Positions 13,571 through 34,687 of a stretch of 53,829 nucleotides of DNA are shown here, one piece after another (within the stretch, counting starts at the first letter, position 1; each line of letters starts with the position of its first letter). The translations under genes and the position numbers were made by a program. A model generated the notes under the pieces. It worked only from the letters and a program-made list of their open reading frames with translations. It searched no databases and had not been told where the DNA came from. The stretch lies in IMG/VR virus record IMGVR_UViG_3300010885_044768, positions 1 to 53,829 of that record; one strand, given 5' to 3'. Source of the DNA: a virus.

Positions 13571-13614
13571 CAGACTGCTCCCGATTGGGAACTCCCTATC
13601 CAAGGAGCAGTCTG
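13571..13614 (+). terminator. Long hairpin at the end of the 12.3-13.6 kb operon
   Basis: CAGACTGCTCC (13571-13581) pairs with GGAGCAGTCTG (13604-13614). A further TTGG/CCAA pair sits inside after a 3-nt bulge. No U-tract follows. Likely a terminator of the U-tract-poor kind or an mRNA 3' stabiliser. Confidence 0.55.
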
Positions 13615-13710
13615 GCAAGGCGGATGCCCGATAGTGGACACCTGCAAACACTCAGCCATTACAACTAAGGTAAGCCTGTTACGGCTCTCTGCATTCAACA
13701 AAATGCATAG

Positions 13711-13790
13711 TGGAGCTGAAGGGAATCGAACCCTTATGCATCATCTTCCATTGTATGGTTTTGAGATGATGACGAAGCCATAACAGCCCC
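13711..13790 (-). ncRNA. tmRNA-like tRNA-like structure without a tag reading frame
   Basis: On the minus strand the RNA begins GGGGCTG (13790-13784) and ends CAGCTCCA (13718-13711), a 7-bp acceptor with a G-U at the third pair, the alanine identity pair of tRNA-Ala and tmRNA. The T arm is AAGGG-TTCGATT-CCCTT. After the acceptor comes TTATGGCTTCGTC, close to the conserved tmRNA D-loop (..TGG.TTCG.C). There is no canonical D stem or 7-nt anticodon loop. Instead CATCATCT pairs with AGATGATG (8 bp) around a 17-nt loop, like tmRNA helix 2 closed over a deleted mRNA domain. CCA is not encoded (ACTA). It may be charged with alanine; its role is unknown. Confidence 0.6.
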
Positions 13791-13800
13791 CGACAAGAAC

Positions 13801-13828
13801 AGGCTAGCCAAAGCGGTTAGCCTTTTCT
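13801..13828 (+). terminator. Rho-independent terminator
   Basis: AGGCTAGCC-AAAGC-GGTTAGCCT followed by TTTTCT: a 9-bp stem (one G-T pair), 5-nt loop and U-tract on the plus strand. It closes the rightward cluster and lies between it and the convergent minus-strand operon. Confidence 0.7.
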
Positions 13829-13843
13829 CATAGACACGCCAAC

Positions 13844-14977
13844 CTAGATGATACTCAAGTTTGAAAAGTCCACACCATTAGTCAGCATCGTCAAAGCACC
13901 AGTTCGAGCGACATCACCATGACGGTGCTTCCAATAAGTTGATTCAGATTCAAAAGTTGGAACGCAAATAACCGCTCGCTCTTTTTTCACCGACATGTGC
14001 ATTTCGTGATTGTGACCATGCAACAAAAATTGGGCTGCGCCTGCTGAATGATTGTTCAACGCCTGCTTTGACCACCACTCAAAAGCTTTACCCTTGCCCC
14101 ATTGATTGCCATGAGCGTGAGTGAAAACAGAGTTGCCAATCTCTCTAGTAATCGTCATCTCATCCCGATTTGGAACAAAGATTTTTACATGCCCATAAGA
14201 CGCAGGATTTAGAAGCAACGCATCCGACAGCGCAATCATCGCTTCAGTTGCATGACCGTCATCGGGTCTAGTAGCAACTGGTAATCGTTGCGCCTCGTCA
14301 TGGTTGCCGTTTACAACATCGATTTCTAACCGCTCAACAAGCGGAGCAAAAGCATCCACAGCATAAAGAGCTAAACGGCGAAACAGTCGATACTGCTCCG
14401 TAACAGTCAGCTCAGTTCGCCACATGCTTTTACCGCCTTGCGACTGATTGCCCTCGCCACAGTCGCCAAGCCAAGCCTGATGCACCATACCGATTGAGTT
14501 GAACCTGCGAAGGGTTTTCAACTCTTTCACACCATTATCAATCGAAGCAAGGACTCTATCCACAACGCCTTGAGTTCCATCGCCATCAATCTTGCCAAGT
14601 TGCAAGTCACCTGCCAACCAATGAAAAACATCATCGCCCTGAGTCGGTGTTGGTTTGAACCTGCGACTACTGATGTGTTTTACCACATCATCCAAATTAG
14701 AAGTTGTGGCTGGAGCGATAGAAAACCGATACGAATGTAGCCATGCGCCATCTTCACGCTGTTGCCATTTAGAAGTTTTGAGAGTTCCAACAATCCGAAC
14801 CTCTTTTGGGTCGTATCCAAACAGTTCTAACACTTCGTCATAACTCGGAGCGCTAGCAAGAGGCTCAGTTTGGATAAACCCTCGACTGCCATCAAATTCT
14901 GTTGAACGAATAAACGGCGCTTTTGGCATTGGCTCAACAACCGTTGGGATGCTGAGATGCTCTCTCAAGTTACCCAT
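13844..14977 (-). CDS. Calcineurin-like metallophosphoesterase
   Basis: 377 residues. The metal-site motifs appear in order: LAGDLQLGKIDGDG (about 121-134), WLGDCGEG, VVNGNHDE, THAHGNQWGKG and LLHGHNHEMH. They match the D.H/GD/GNHD/H/GH.H pattern of calcineurin-like phosphoesterases; the first D.x.H is changed to D.x.Q. The roughly 100-residue N-terminal region is extra. Phosphoesterases of this type in actinophages are annotated as nucleases or with unknown substrate. One-base overlap with the small upstream gene (TGATG). Confidence 0.75.
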   Translation of the reverse strand: MGNLREHLSIPTVVEPMPKAPFIRSTEFDGSRGFIQTEPLASAPSYDEVLELFGYDPKEVRIVGTLKTSKWQQREDGAWLHSYRFSIAPATTSNLDDVVKHISSRRFKPTPTQGDDVFHWLAGDLQLGKIDGDGTQGVVDRVLASIDNGVKELKTLRRFNSIGMVHQAWLGDCGEGNQSQGGKSMWRTELTVTEQYRLFRRLALYAVDAFAPLVERLEIDVVNGNHDEAQRLPVATRPDDGHATEAMIALSDALLLNPASYGHVKIFVPNRDEMTITREIGNSVFTHAHGNQWGKGKAFEWWSKQALNNHSAGAAQFLLHGHNHEMHMSVKKERAVICVPTFESESTYWKHRHGDVARTGALTMLTNGVDFSNLSII

Positions 14978-15909: not shown

Positions 15910-16958
15910 TATTCGTTACCCTTTGCTAGGAACTCGTCATACGCTGCTTGGTCTGCTGCGACAAAGTTTCTTGAATTATCTGTTTGCCCAATAATTTTAG
16001 CACCACCCATAACTGTCGAGTCGATAAGAATCAACCGAGTAAACGCTTTGCTAACTGCCGCTTCTTTGAAAGTGTTTGATACTTGCTTGTGAGTGTCACG
16101 AACAATGTATTCAGGAACAAAACGGCGACCAGACGAGTTCAATGCTCGTTTTTTGCTTCTTCCCCAAGCTTCTTCAGTTGGAATGGTGAAGTAAACGCCT
16201 TGAACTCCATAGCCTGCCGATGTCGCCTGCTTGATTTTTTTCTCAAGTTTTTCCATTGATGAATCGCCTGTGCCGTCAAGAACAATGTCTTGTTTGTTGG
16301 CGACAGCTGCGTTTTGAACTCGTTTAGCTAGCATTGAAGATTCTTCGTGAGAAAAAGCGGCAGCTTCAAAAAAGTCGTTGTCGTCATCGCTTTTGGTCAT
16401 GCGCCCATACTCAGGCAAATTATCTTTGAGGTCATCAGCGTTGATGTGGACTCCTTGCGTTTTACTCGGCACTCCTTCGACAATGCCTTGCTTTAGCGCA
16501 GTTGTTTTACCTGCGGCTGGACCACCACCAAGCATTGTAAATGTTGGGTTATCTGATGAAGGAATTCCAGCAGTTGCTTTTTCGATAATACTGTTGTGTA
16601 AAGCAGCTCGCTCAGCAGTTAGACGGTAGCCGTTAGCTCCGTCACTTTCTAGGTGATGCCAAAGGCTGTGGTCTGGGGTCAGGTGCATGCCGTCAAATTC
16701 AATGTCATTTGGGATGCCAGCTTTGTAACCGCCAGTAGCATCAGGGTTGATAACATTGCCTCGGTTGTCACGCTTCATGCCATGTTTGATTTTTCCCGAA
16801 TCCATCATTTTTTTACGGTTCAATGCCATGCGAGCGTAAGCGGCTGAGCGACCGCCACCTGCGTGAAAACTTTGGTCATGCTTGCCAGCCATGTGTTTTT
16901 CAATGCTGTCATCATAGCCACTATCAAAAATTAGCGGTGAGCTTGAAGGAACAATCAT
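15909..16958 (-). CDS. Zeta toxin-like kinase with HDQS tag
   Basis: 349 residues. The tag KHMAGKHDQSFH spans residues 21-32, after a 20-residue leader. A P-loop follows at 144-152 (GGGPAAGKT), then HINADDLKDNLPEY (171-184) and FSHEESSML (202-210), and DIVLDGTGD (224-232), all features of the zeta toxin/UDP-GlcNAc kinase fold. Zeta toxins phosphorylate UDP-N-acetylglucosamine and so block cell wall synthesis; activity here is inferred. No epsilon-type antitoxin is adjacent, which fits a protein kept inside the virion rather than a toxin-antitoxin pair. Confidence 0.82.
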   Translation of the reverse strand: MIVPSSSPLIFDSGYDDSIEKHMAGKHDQSFHAGGGRSAAYARMALNRKKMMDSGKIKHGMKRDNRGNVINPDATGGYKAGIPNDIEFDGMHLTPDHSLWHHLESDGANGYRLTAERAALHNSIIEKATAGIPSSDNPTFTMLGGGPAAGKTTALKQGIVEGVPSKTQGVHINADDLKDNLPEYGRMTKSDDDNDFFEAAAFSHEESSMLAKRVQNAAVANKQDIVLDGTGDSSMEKLEKKIKQATSAGYGVQGVYFTIPTEEAWGRSKKRALNSSGRRFVPEYIVRDTHKQVSNTFKEAAVSKAFTRLILIDSTVMGGAKIIGQTDNSRNFVAADQAAYDEFLAKGNE

Positions 16959-18376
16959 CAGTATTCTCCAGTTTGAGGCATTTCGATAGAAGATGCTAGG
17001 TGGTCTGTAAAGTTTTGAACAAGCATAGAACCATACTCGCTCACATTTATTTCATAAGCGTCAGCGACAGCATCGCCAACAATAGCCCTCAACTGCCATT
17101 GCCACTTAGAGTGCATGTCCAAACGGTCAGCTAAAAAGTTTGCAACGCCCTGCTCACTCATCGCTGTTGCGAGCGAAAATGCTTTTACAAGGCAACCACG
17201 CAACTGTTCGTTAGCCACATACAAAATTTGGCTCATCAGCATTGGGTCGTTGGTTTCAGGGATTTCCATAGTCGCAAGGTTGCACATGAAATCGCTAATA
17301 CGAAAAGGTGCATCAAAGTTGAGTTTACGAATGTTCTCAGCAAGTGGGTCAATTGAACTATCGGCATCTTCGTAAATCTCTTGAAACAGGTCGTGGAACT
17401 GTTGAAAGTTTGGACCTGTAACATTCCAATGAAAACCATGACCGATGAATTTGAAAGTGACGACATCTCCGAGCAGTTCGCACAGCTCAGCAGCTAAACC
17501 TTCTTTAGTTGGTTCTGTGATAAACATTGCATGTTTTGCAACGGTTAGATTATCTACAAAGTCTTTAGGCAAAATGAAAGGCGCAGATTTACGGATGTGT
17601 TTGATTCGGTTGATTTCCGCTTCACGCTCTTTGGCTGCTTTTTCAGAGCTGAAACTTCCAAGGTGACGGCTACCATCATGTGAGTAAAGTTCAAACTTGC
17701 CATTATCTTCACGAATCATTTTGGTGAAACTAAAAGAACCCGATGGGTCATCTAGCGAAGCAGTAACTTCTTCCTCAGCTCGAACCGCTGTGCCACCAAT
17801 TGACAAACCACGAATCTGACCGCCCTTGATAAGCTCCCAAGCCCAAGGTTGCCAAACAATACCTAGAAAAGGTGTGCCAGCTGGAAAAGTGTATTCGGTG
17901 TCACCTTCAGGGTGTTTGACTGGAGCAGTAAATTCGAAAGGAAATGTTGCGCCTTCAACCCATTCACCTGCAACAATGTCGGTGTTGTGTTGTAGGCGGA
18001 TACCTCGGTCAGGTTTTGCAAGGTAGTTCCAAAAAGCGTGTTGAACTTCTTTAGAGTCAGTCCATTCTCCATGAGCGTCTAATGAGTCGGGCACATACCA
18101 AGGTGAAAAGGTGTAACGCTCTTCTTCACTCATTGCTTTAGCGATAGAGCTAAACGATGTGAGTGGTTTCTTTTTGTTCCAGCTAGTGCTATCAACATGT
18201 GAGCTAGTTGAAGTTGGAGCGTCTTTGGTCATCGAAAGAATCTGCAATCCCTCGTCATCGAACTCGACAACAACAGTATCCTGCCCATCAACAATCATGT
18301 CGCTTAGGGTAGCAGAAAGTTCTGGGTTGTCTTTGACAAGTTCAAGAGCATCGGAGATAGCTAGCGTTTTCTTCAT
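16958..18376 (-). CDS. XkdF-like prohead protease fused to a Dps/ferritin-like domain
   Basis: 472 residues. Residues about 86-205 match the XkdF-type capsid protease: YTFSPWYVPDSLDAHGEWTD, GIRLQHNTDIVAGEWVEG, PFLGIVWQPWAWELIKGGQI and GLSIGGTAVR; H130 and S192 are candidate catalytic residues. A short linker domain (YSHDGSRHLGSFSSEKAAKE) follows. Residues about 290-435 are Dps-like: HWNVTGPNFQQFH, then D343 and E347, with the Dps spacing of H316, H328, D343 and E347; the fifth ferroxidase ligand position is Q332. Dps proteins bind iron and DNA as 12-mers. This fusion is unusual. There is no HDQS tag in this protein. Confidence 0.78.
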   Translation of the reverse strand: MKKTLAISDALELVKDNPELSATLSDMIVDGQDTVVVEFDDEGLQILSMTKDAPTSTSSHVDSTSWNKKKPLTSFSSIAKAMSEEERYTFSPWYVPDSLDAHGEWTDSKEVQHAFWNYLAKPDRGIRLQHNTDIVAGEWVEGATFPFEFTAPVKHPEGDTEYTFPAGTPFLGIVWQPWAWELIKGGQIRGLSIGGTAVRAEEEVTASLDDPSGSFSFTKMIREDNGKFELYSHDGSRHLGSFSSEKAAKEREAEINRIKHIRKSAPFILPKDFVDNLTVAKHAMFITEPTKEGLAAELCELLGDVVTFKFIGHGFHWNVTGPNFQQFHDLFQEIYEDADSSIDPLAENIRKLNFDAPFRISDFMCNLATMEIPETNDPMLMSQILYVANEQLRGCLVKAFSLATAMSEQGVANFLADRLDMHSKWQWQLRAIVGDAVADAYEINVSEYGSMLVQNFTDHLASSIEMPQTGEY

Positions 18377-33360: not shown

Positions 33361-33908
33361 TAAATTTCATCTCCCCATACTTCCCAGCCTGTGTATGGTC
33401 GTCTTGCAAAGAGTTCGAGTTTGGTGGCGTTGGGGTAGAGTTTGTTGATTGAGTCGTGGATTGCATCGGGTTTGCGTGAGTGTTCTTGTTTGGGTGCGAG
33501 GATGACATGGCGGATTGATTCGTCTGCTAAGGGTAGTGGTCTGCCTTTGGCAACATTGGATGCAACTAGAACAAATTCGGCTGTTGGTTTGACTACTGAT
33601 GGTCTTACGCCTTGTGCGCCGATTGGTGTGCCGTTTTGTTTGGATTTGACCCATGTGAATGCTACTCCTCGGTAGTGTAATCCCCATGCTTCGATGAGTT
33701 TGATTGCTGCGTCTAGGCGTGGTGCGGTTGCCCATACGAATACGACTGCTTTTTTGTTTAGCAAATTTTGAATGGGCATTGCTTGTAGGTCTGTGTCTGT
33801 CATGGTTGAGTAGAACTTTGCAGCTGCACCCCATTTGTCTTGTTGTCCATGATAAGACCAAGGTGGGTCTATGAGTAGAACATCGTAGGTTTTGTTTGGT
33901 AGTTGCAT
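33360..33908 (-). CDS. MT-A70 family adenine methyltransferase
   Basis: 182 residues from ATG 33908 (GGAG 5 nt upstream; TAATG junction with the transporter). YDVLLIDPPWSYHG holds the DPPW catalytic motif; FVWATAPRLDAAIKLIEAWG, YRGVAFTWVKS, TAEFVLVAS and HSRKPDAIHDSINKLYP...KLELFARRPYTGWEVWGDE complete the family pattern. Probably methylates adenine N6 in DNA at a specific site. It lies beside the terminase genes, with a second DNA modification gene at 28681. Confidence 0.9.
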   Translation of the reverse strand: MQLPNKTYDVLLIDPPWSYHGQQDKWGAAAKFYSTMTDTDLQAMPIQNLLNKKAVVFVWATAPRLDAAIKLIEAWGLHYRGVAFTWVKSKQNGTPIGAQGVRPSVVKPTAEFVLVASNVAKGRPLPLADESIRHVILAPKQEHSRKPDAIHDSINKLYPNATKLELFARRPYTGWEVWGDEI

Positions 33909-34687
33909 TACAGCTCCATGAGGATTGGAACACCGATTGCGATTGCTGCTAGGGATGCGATGAGTGTGAGTGTGATGTTGTAAATGTAGCGTTGGTCTTT
34001 GGCTATTGCCCATTTCATGCTTTTGCTCATGATGTATCCGCTTAGGGTGTCGCCTAGTGCCATTCCTGCGGTGAAGATGATTGGTAACGATAGGACTGCA
34101 AAAGCTAGATTGGCTGAGGCTACGCTAACGATTGACAGGCTGAGGAATGTGATGCTTGTTGCTGTATCGAAGCCTAGCCCAAATAATAGTCCGACTGGAT
34201 ACATTTGCCATTGTTGGTTTACTGGCTTGATGAACTTGCTGAAGAAACCTGTTGGTTGAGCGTCTTTGTCGCCATCCACAATTTTCCAAAGGATTCTTAG
34301 ATTCCATGCTGCGAGTAGTAGTAGAAAGCTTCCAGCTACTAGGCTGCCGATAAATCCGCCTGTTTGTTTTAGGGTTGAGTTTTCGTTGAGGAGGTCTTGC
34401 CCGATTGTGCTGATTCCTGTAACCGCTAAAGCTGTTGCAATGAAAACAACTGTTGAGTGACCTAGTGAGAAAAAGAAACCTACGCCATGTGATTCTTTAT
34501 GTTCGTGGATTAGTTTGCGAGTAGTGCCGTCAATGGCAACTAGGTGGTCTGCGTCAAATGCGTGGCGCATGCCCAGCGTATAAGCAAGTAGGGCTGTTGC
34601 TAGTGTGATTGATTCAAAACCTAAAACGAAAAAGATTCCCCATCCAATCAAATGTAATGTGGCAACGCCTATAAGTATTTTTTTCAT
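33908..34687 (-). CDS. NiCoT-family nickel/cobalt permease
   Basis: 259 residues, about seven hydrophobic segments. The family signatures are present: RHAFDADHLVAID (HX4DH, H42/D47/H48), GFFFSLGHSTVV, LGFDTATSI (171-179) and AGMALGDTLSGYIM (207-220). NiCoT proteins import Ni2+ or Co2+ across the inner membrane. Cellular members are usually above 300 residues, so this is short but keeps all signatures. Tight spacing to the ParB-like gene (6 nt) and TAATG coupling to the methyltransferase show that it is a true phage gene, a candidate auxiliary metabolic gene. Confidence 0.88.
   Translation of the reverse strand: MKKILIGVATLHLIGWGIFFVLGFESITLATALLAYTLGMRHAFDADHLVAIDGTTRKLIHEHKESHGVGFFFSLGHSTVVFIATALAVTGISTIGQDLLNENSTLKQTGGFIGSLVAGSFLLLLAAWNLRILWKIVDGDKDAQPTGFFSKFIKPVNQQWQMYPVGLLFGLGFDTATSITFLSLSIVSVASANLAFAVLSLPIIFTAGMALGDTLSGYIMSKSMKWAIAKDQRYIYNITLTLIASLAAIAIGVPILMEL

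Follow-up and report, generated by a model that had tools for sequence, protein, structure and literature searches.

Closest described systems

Nearly all bacteria depend on ribosome rescue, which is also a drug target. The standard tmRNA (RF00023), 230–400 nt in length, combines a tRNA-like domain (TLD), in which a G3-U70/A73 acceptor, a stemless UGGNUUCG D loop, a GAC..GGAC helix 2 base and a T arm can be discerned, with pseudoknots, a resume codon and a tag frame. Full-length tmRNAs of this kind are also carried by phages, often in tRNA arrays, as in the Bxz1-type mycobacteriophages, Streptomyces phage Forrest and, in permuted form, the OM43 phage Melnitz, and these encode the tag. Tag-less tmRNAs consisting of a tRNA-like domain without coding sequence are found in organelles, both in mitochondria and as ~65-bp plastid genes in Mallomonadaceae. 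A 2025 census of 97,179 tmRNA sequences lists 9 as “standard, no CDS” versus 72 as “permuted, no CDS” (PMC11915505). Among phages, the tmRNA of mycobacteriophage DS6A is listed as “TLD only” (tmRNA Website 11587), and a similar molecule is reported to inhibit tmRNA strongly in E. coli whether it is chargeable or not, perhaps via titration of SmpB (PMC4131195, PMC11915505). A TLD-only phage tmRNA is an already known kind, reported from one phage.

The element considered here lies on the minus strand of the window, i.e. the whole stretch of DNA analysed, a virus record of 53,829 bases. Compared by description, it resembles the DS6A RNA in being a phage gene of standard order that comprises little more than the tRNA-like domain and has no tag. 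Mao et al. (2009) are reportedly the source for both the DS6A TLD and the inhibition of tmRNA. The DS6A RNA has been reported as a single case, whereas RNAs of the window’s kind, referred to below as mini-tmRNAs, occur in more than 100 phage contigs. They share the acceptor, D loop, helix 2 base and T arm of the standard tmRNA and the coding-free tRNA-like domain of the organelle forms, but measure 58–107 nt, with helix 2 ending in a short hairpin; their genes are phage-borne, follow the standard order and encode a cap that is conserved, whereas the tag-less forms of the census are more commonly permuted. In the literature searched (outside subscription journals and preprints), neither a wide phage family nor the cap or conservation of the alanine identity is described, and the breadth of the family, its conserved cap and the selection on charging appear to be undescribed; a widespread phage counter-measure against ribosome rescue was likewise not found there.

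Architecture and identity of the element

Read on the minus strand from 13790 to 13711, the 5′ part of the RNA is GGGGCUG-UUAUGGCUUCGU-CAUCAUCU-(CAAAA CCA UACAA UGG A), and the 3′ part following the cap is AGAUGAUG-CAU-AAGGG-UUCGAUU-CCCUU-CAGCUCC-A. The features are as follows, R1 being a mini-tmRNA covariance model that has the window among its building sequences:

13711..13790, minus strand: mini-tmRNA (tRNA-like domain only), 80 nt from G1 to discriminator A73; RF00023 57 bits, R1 75.4 bits
13784..13790, minus strand: acceptor 5′ strand GGGGCUG, including G3 of the G3-U70 wobble; 7/7 paired with 13712–13718
13772..13783, minus strand: stemless D-loop region UUAUGGCUUCGU, of tmRNA type UGGNUUCG by the RF00023 alignment
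13764..13771, minus strand: helix 2, 5′ strand CAUCAUCU, 8 bp
13747..13763, minus strand: cap, an A-rich internal loop and small hairpin CCA-UACAA-UGG replacing pseudoknots and tag frame
13739..13746, minus strand: helix 2, 3′ strand AGAUGAUG, paired with 13764–13771
13719..13735, minus strand: T arm AAGGG-UUCGAUU-CCCUU, 5/5 bp, GUUCGA loop
13711..13718, minus strand: acceptor 3′ strand CAGCUCC (including U70) and discriminator A73, from the sequence; kept in relatives
13708..13710, minus strand: CUA where an encoded CCA would stand, from the sequence

The Rfam tmRNA model RF00023 matches positions 13708–13790 of the minus strand with 57 bits (gathering score 47, E 9e-20 in a search of the whole window). 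The alignment spans model positions 1–374, with approximately 290 internal positions absent, and by this alignment the mRNA-like domain of a full tmRNA, with its pseudoknots and tag reading frame, is not present in the RNA. Judged by its sequence, the element is thus the tRNA-like domain of a tmRNA without the tag part, as had been anticipated by the original prediction of a tag-less tmRNA-like RNA. That prediction holds in its particulars for the tmRNA acceptor with the G-U alanine identity pair, all seven pairs of which form, for the tmRNA-like D-loop, and for the perfect T arm. It has to be amended at helix 2, where the 8-bp helix lacking pseudoknots and tag frame is indeed found, but the plain short loop thought to close it is instead an asymmetric A-rich internal loop with a 3-bp hairpin, the spacing between the two helix strands being only 17 nt. 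As CCA is not encoded, its addition after trimming would be needed. The minimum-free-energy z-score of the RNA is −2.8, and a pattern describing its geometry has 1 match in the window versus 0 in 200 simulated sequences (order-1, of the same length as the window, one strand each).

Several other classes of RNA were considered and rejected. ARAGORN finds 0 genes in the window, neither tRNA nor tmRNA, and the tRNA model RF00005 has 0 matches across the whole record, which together rule out a degenerate or canonical tRNA; the covariance models, which could have contradicted the predicted class, thus uphold it, with the tmRNA model matching over its cut-off and the tRNA model not at all. A permuted two-piece tmRNA (RF04321) is ruled out by the standard order of the halves and a score of 18.7 bits against a cut-off of 47, and an att-site scar in ssrA is made improbable by the presence of both the 5′ and 3′ ends and the lack of a PF00589 match in the window.

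Genomic context and conservation in the lineage

The mini-tmRNA is located in a convergent gap, where it closes the leftward gene block of the window. Immediately upstream is a gene of the same orientation, whose stop codon is separated from the RNA by 53 nt:

13844..14977, minus strand: exonuclease/metallophosphoesterase gene (PHROG 284)

No convincing promoter is seen near it in the window, and for that reason the RNA is probably cut from the transcript of the leftward block. A weak GGCGTGTC box at 13831–13840, to which the original prediction had drawn attention, cannot be made out behind the exonuclease gene of three relatives (L132, L133 and L135) and is probably a chance string. For the portal and helicase proteins of the window the closest relatives come from Arthrobacter phages (50% and 45% identity, respectively), and for its exonuclease they come from mycobacterial, Gordonia and other actinobacterial phages, which makes an actinobacterial host likely.

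Relatives of this lineage were sought with the exonuclease protein rather than with the RNA, and 24 were found. Those with the nearest exonucleases carry the mini-tmRNA, either directly after the exonuclease gene (L132, 84% identical; L133, 81%; L135, 49%) or upstream in the same gene block (L134, 67%), and the D-loop is kept in all four. Acceptors among the relatives found in this way read GGGCUUG/CAAGUCC, GGGCUAG/CUAGUCC and GGGAGAU/AUCUUCC, so that at pairs 4–7 both sides change with pairing kept, and G3-U70 is constant in 6/6. Both-sided changes are also seen at 7/8 pairs of helix 2 among 6 relatives, compensatory changes occur in the T stem too, and the stem of the cap hairpin varies with compensation, being CCA/UGG in the window, CCG/CGG in L109 and CCC/GGG in L134. 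In the lineage alignment, which was not fitted to the structure and includes L109, where another phage has an identical acceptor, pairing holds in 92.7% of cells and 15/23 pairs show both-sided change; the covariation score is 0.646 versus 0.194 for shuffled and at most 0.151 for slid structures. Conservation in related phages, on which the predicted class depended, is thus present with compensatory changes, helix 2 included. The mini-tmRNA is absent from Jace, Catfish, prophiGD91-2 and Kovu despite their related exonuclease or portal.

A wide phage family

Further members were collected with sequence patterns that impose the letters of the D-loop and T-loop and leave helix 2, the cap and the outer T-stem pairs free, so that conservation of the imposed letters in the pattern-derived set is no evidence in itself. 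A strict pattern matched 14 viral stretches and none of the genomes of 84,980 species; a looser pattern matched at least 119 viral stretches, and one with the acceptor left free at least 120. In genomes, the acceptor-free pattern gave 3 matches, namely 2 full-length tmRNAs and 1 true member, the sole one in a bacterial genome, which lies beside a tRNA array in Cellulosimicrobium cellulans. A covariance-model scan of 296 Actinomycetota genomes recovered no further member; the weak matches (36–43 bits) that were inspected proved to be tRNA-Ala, terminal parts of full tmRNAs and, in one case (L260), a tRNA-like sequence. In all, more than 130 distinct sequences were gathered (76 and 60 more), and by these searches the family is large, essentially phage-restricted and mostly unannotated, being present in more than 100 other phages. 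Its members are compact RNAs that retain exactly those parts which AlaRS, EF-Tu and SmpB are known to use, while the tag-making part is gone.

The alignments exclude the false positives L021, L046, L089, L105, L110 and L121, which are tRNA-like fragments, as well as the doubtful L019, L085, L098 and L125. Across 63 distinct family sequences, whose alignment, unlike that of the lineage, was fitted to the model, pairing is found in 92.9% of cells, with a covariation score of 0.668 versus 0.136 shuffled and at most 0.11 slid. With R1, most members score 53–81 bits (the window 75.4) versus 18–43 for full tmRNAs and tRNAs; for the full-length phage tmRNAs L249, L250 and L251 the range is 18–33 bits, as against 53–81 for nearly all minis. 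Lengths span 58–107 nt, most members measuring 73–84 nt and bearing a UAAAGCC...GGA-type cap, in which the AAAGCC..GGA pattern is conserved, and in a short class of 58–64 nt a plain loop closes helix 2. Four sequences (L127, L128, L129 and L130) have longer caps (101–107 nt in total) and may represent either a stage between full tmRNAs and the short form or a later expansion.

At the base of helix 2, unpaired residues (13772 and 13738 in the window) flank an invariant C-G pair and seem to covary, being A/G in 100 sequences, U/C in 8 (the window lineage included) and C/U in 4, which suggests a noncanonical pair. One contig (L178) carries two mini-tmRNAs, at 5–81 and 1317–1392, the T loop of the first being broken. 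In three phage contigs the mini-tmRNA is preceded, ~105–205 nt upstream and in the same orientation, by a Pistol ribozyme:

L006 6093–6154, minus strand: Pistol ribozyme
L010 11838–11899, minus strand: Pistol ribozyme
L009 706–767, plus strand: Pistol ribozyme

Pistol cleavage could shape the precursor of the mini-tmRNA. In two of these contigs (L006 5905–6228 and L010 11650–11973) ARAGORN calls a spurious 324-nt tmRNA with the tag AWDYNPMWVQCSA, which ends on the mini-tmRNA and engulfs the ribozyme. Existing annotation may therefore hide mini-tmRNAs inside spurious long tmRNAs; current tools miss them either in this way or, as in the window, by calling nothing.

Among cultured phages, clear members are found in the Streptomyces phages LuckySocke, GiJojo, pSt2308, BRock and Shaeky and in Stenotrophomonas virus Jojan60, none so annotated, and weaker, drifting copies in Alone3 and Riptide. 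The copies of the cultured Streptomyces and Stenotrophomonas phages sit in tRNA arrays, and in LuckySocke, pSt2308, Alone3 and BRock the mini-tmRNA follows the same tRNA-Val(tac) gene, the linked acceptors being GGGUCUG, GGGGCUG and GGGUUUG, each with a matching opposite strand. Some copies, such as that of Alone3, are decaying, and the RNA is therefore dispensable in some phages.

Such decaying copies, together with the frequent targeting of ssrA by integrases (PMC11915505), could be taken to mean that the element is a functionless remnant, either a decayed tmRNA gene or the scar of an ssrA integration site. The strong compensatory change throughout the RNA largely refutes this reading, and it is further opposed by 5′ and 3′ halves that are complete, unlike those of an att scar, by a tyrosine integrase over cut-off in only 5/41 carrier records and none in the window, and by the near absence from bacterial genomes. 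A remnant is accordingly regarded as extremely improbable.

Alanine identity and the CCA end

The acceptor was assessed in 65 distinct sequences of the acceptor-unconstrained set. A full 7-pair acceptor forms in 64/65 of these, and G1-C72 (65/65), G2-C71 (64/65), G3-U70 (64/65), G7-C66 (64/65) and A73 (65/65) are kept, while pairs 4, 5 and 6 each show five or six pair types. The recognition elements of AlaRS are G3-U70 and A73 (PMC3968760); their constancy, while pairs 4–6 vary, implies selection that keeps alanine identity beyond mere pairing, so alanine charging appears to be under selection in the family. CCA is encoded in 14/65 sequences, most relatives being without it. The Jojan60 (Stenotrophomonas) copy encodes CCA and the Streptomyces phage copies that were checked do not, a pattern that fits host-matched maturation.

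Proposed action on ribosome rescue

The sequences themselves show that the tRNA-like domain is present and the tag domain missing, that the RNA is conserved and retains its alanine identity, that it is nearly restricted to phages and that no phage SmpB goes with it: none is encoded in the 52 records searched, window included. These 52 records also hold no second tmRNA match over cut-off, and hence no full-length tmRNA beside the mini; in 5 of them, whose copies are short or divergent, there is no tmRNA match over cut-off at all. No tRNA over cut-off is found in 27/52, again including the window, so that the mini-tmRNA is often the sole tRNA-like gene. The charged acceptor of the tRNA-like domain is the part bound by EF-Tu. 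SmpB contacts the TLD at its D/T-loop elbow, and stalled ribosomes carrying the TLD–SmpB complex have been visualised (PMC3968760). Given both interactions, an alanylated tRNA-like domain together with host SmpB should enter stalled ribosomes, and with neither resume codon nor tag it cannot complete trans-translation.

Phages therefore probably use the mini-tmRNA to interfere with or rewire host ribosome rescue. In the model preferred here, to which we give about an even chance, an alanylated tag-less tmRNA that uses the AlaRS, EF-Tu and SmpB of the host competes with host tmRNA at stalled ribosomes. The mini-tmRNA would be processed from the phage transcript in tRNA fashion, with CCA added by the host; host AlaRS would then load it with alanine, and EF-Tu and SmpB, likewise from the host, would bind it. 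The charged RNA would enter the mRNA-less A site of stalled ribosomes in rivalry with host tmRNA, and titration of SmpB and/or a dead-end transfer of the nascent chain would follow. During infection this would dampen trans-translation and with it the tagging of stalled proteins. Expression, charging, binding of SmpB and EF-Tu, inhibition and benefit to the phage, as well as every step after transcription, are what we infer. The reported inhibition by a similar molecule makes this decoy model the best supported, and on the present analysis a decoy function is plausible. Since that molecule is reported to inhibit whether chargeable or not, SmpB titration alone leaves the conservation of charging unexplained; that the charging signal is kept suggests an additional effect on the ribosome itself. 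The scale of the family, the selection on charging, the cap and the existence of cultured Streptomyces and Stenotrophomonas phages with unannotated copies allow the question to be tested directly.

That the charging identity is conserved more than SmpB titration alone requires would equally suit a tag-free form of rescue, in which the alanylated RNA with host SmpB enters stalled ribosomes, accepts the nascent chain and helps to free the ribosome or adds alanine, leaving no mark for proteolysis. Ribosomes would then keep moving and phage proteins would be spared tagging, as with the mitochondrial tag-less tmRNAs, which are conserved despite having no tag frame and co-occur with SmpB (PMC11915505). 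It has to be noted, however, that no way is known of releasing the ribosome without a stop codon on the tmRNA, and that the similar molecule is reported (PMC4131195, PMC11915505) as an inhibitor of tmRNA and not as its replacement; rescue of this kind is considered rather unlikely. A further variant, which we would call a long shot, has the mini-tmRNA stay charged and, with host SmpB, re-enter mRNA-less ribosomes repeatedly and add alanine untemplated, so that trans-translation would become phage-controlled and tag-free beyond mere titration of SmpB, with the cap as the phage-specific part that blocks host tmRNA or fixes the complex on the ribosome. If true, it would be an RNA-only counterpart of bacterial poly-alanine tailing.

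The RNA might also serve another tRNA-like purpose: it could act as bait for tRNA nucleases or tRNA-sensing defences of the host, buffer AlaRS or EF-Tu, or mark the transcript for processing. Its place in the tRNA arrays of Streptomyces and Stenotrophomonas phages, its position closing the leftward gene block in the window and the conserved sequence in the cap would agree with such uses, but it has no anticodon loop for cutting or reading, in many carriers, among them the window, no encoded tRNA exceeds the family cut-off, and the kept tmRNA-type D loop and helix 2 geometry point to SmpB. This explanation is held to be about as doubtful as tag-free rescue.

Other features of the window

A 14-nt inverted repeat at 13796–13828, just 5′ of the mini-tmRNA, is terminator-like on the plus strand, and a plus-strand transcript terminating there would cross the mini-tmRNA in antisense. 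The convergent gap also holds a perfect 11-bp inverted repeat, CAGACTGCTCC/GGAGCAGTCTG, with a 22-nt spacer at 13571–13614. An RNA-repair operon was considered and rejected, the PHROG label “RNA ligase” on 16958–18376 belonging to a protease/ferritin-like protein by Pfam. On the minus strand, positions 33908–34687 encode a NicO-family nickel-transport protein (174.6 bits), the gene adjoining that of an MT-A70 methyltransferase.
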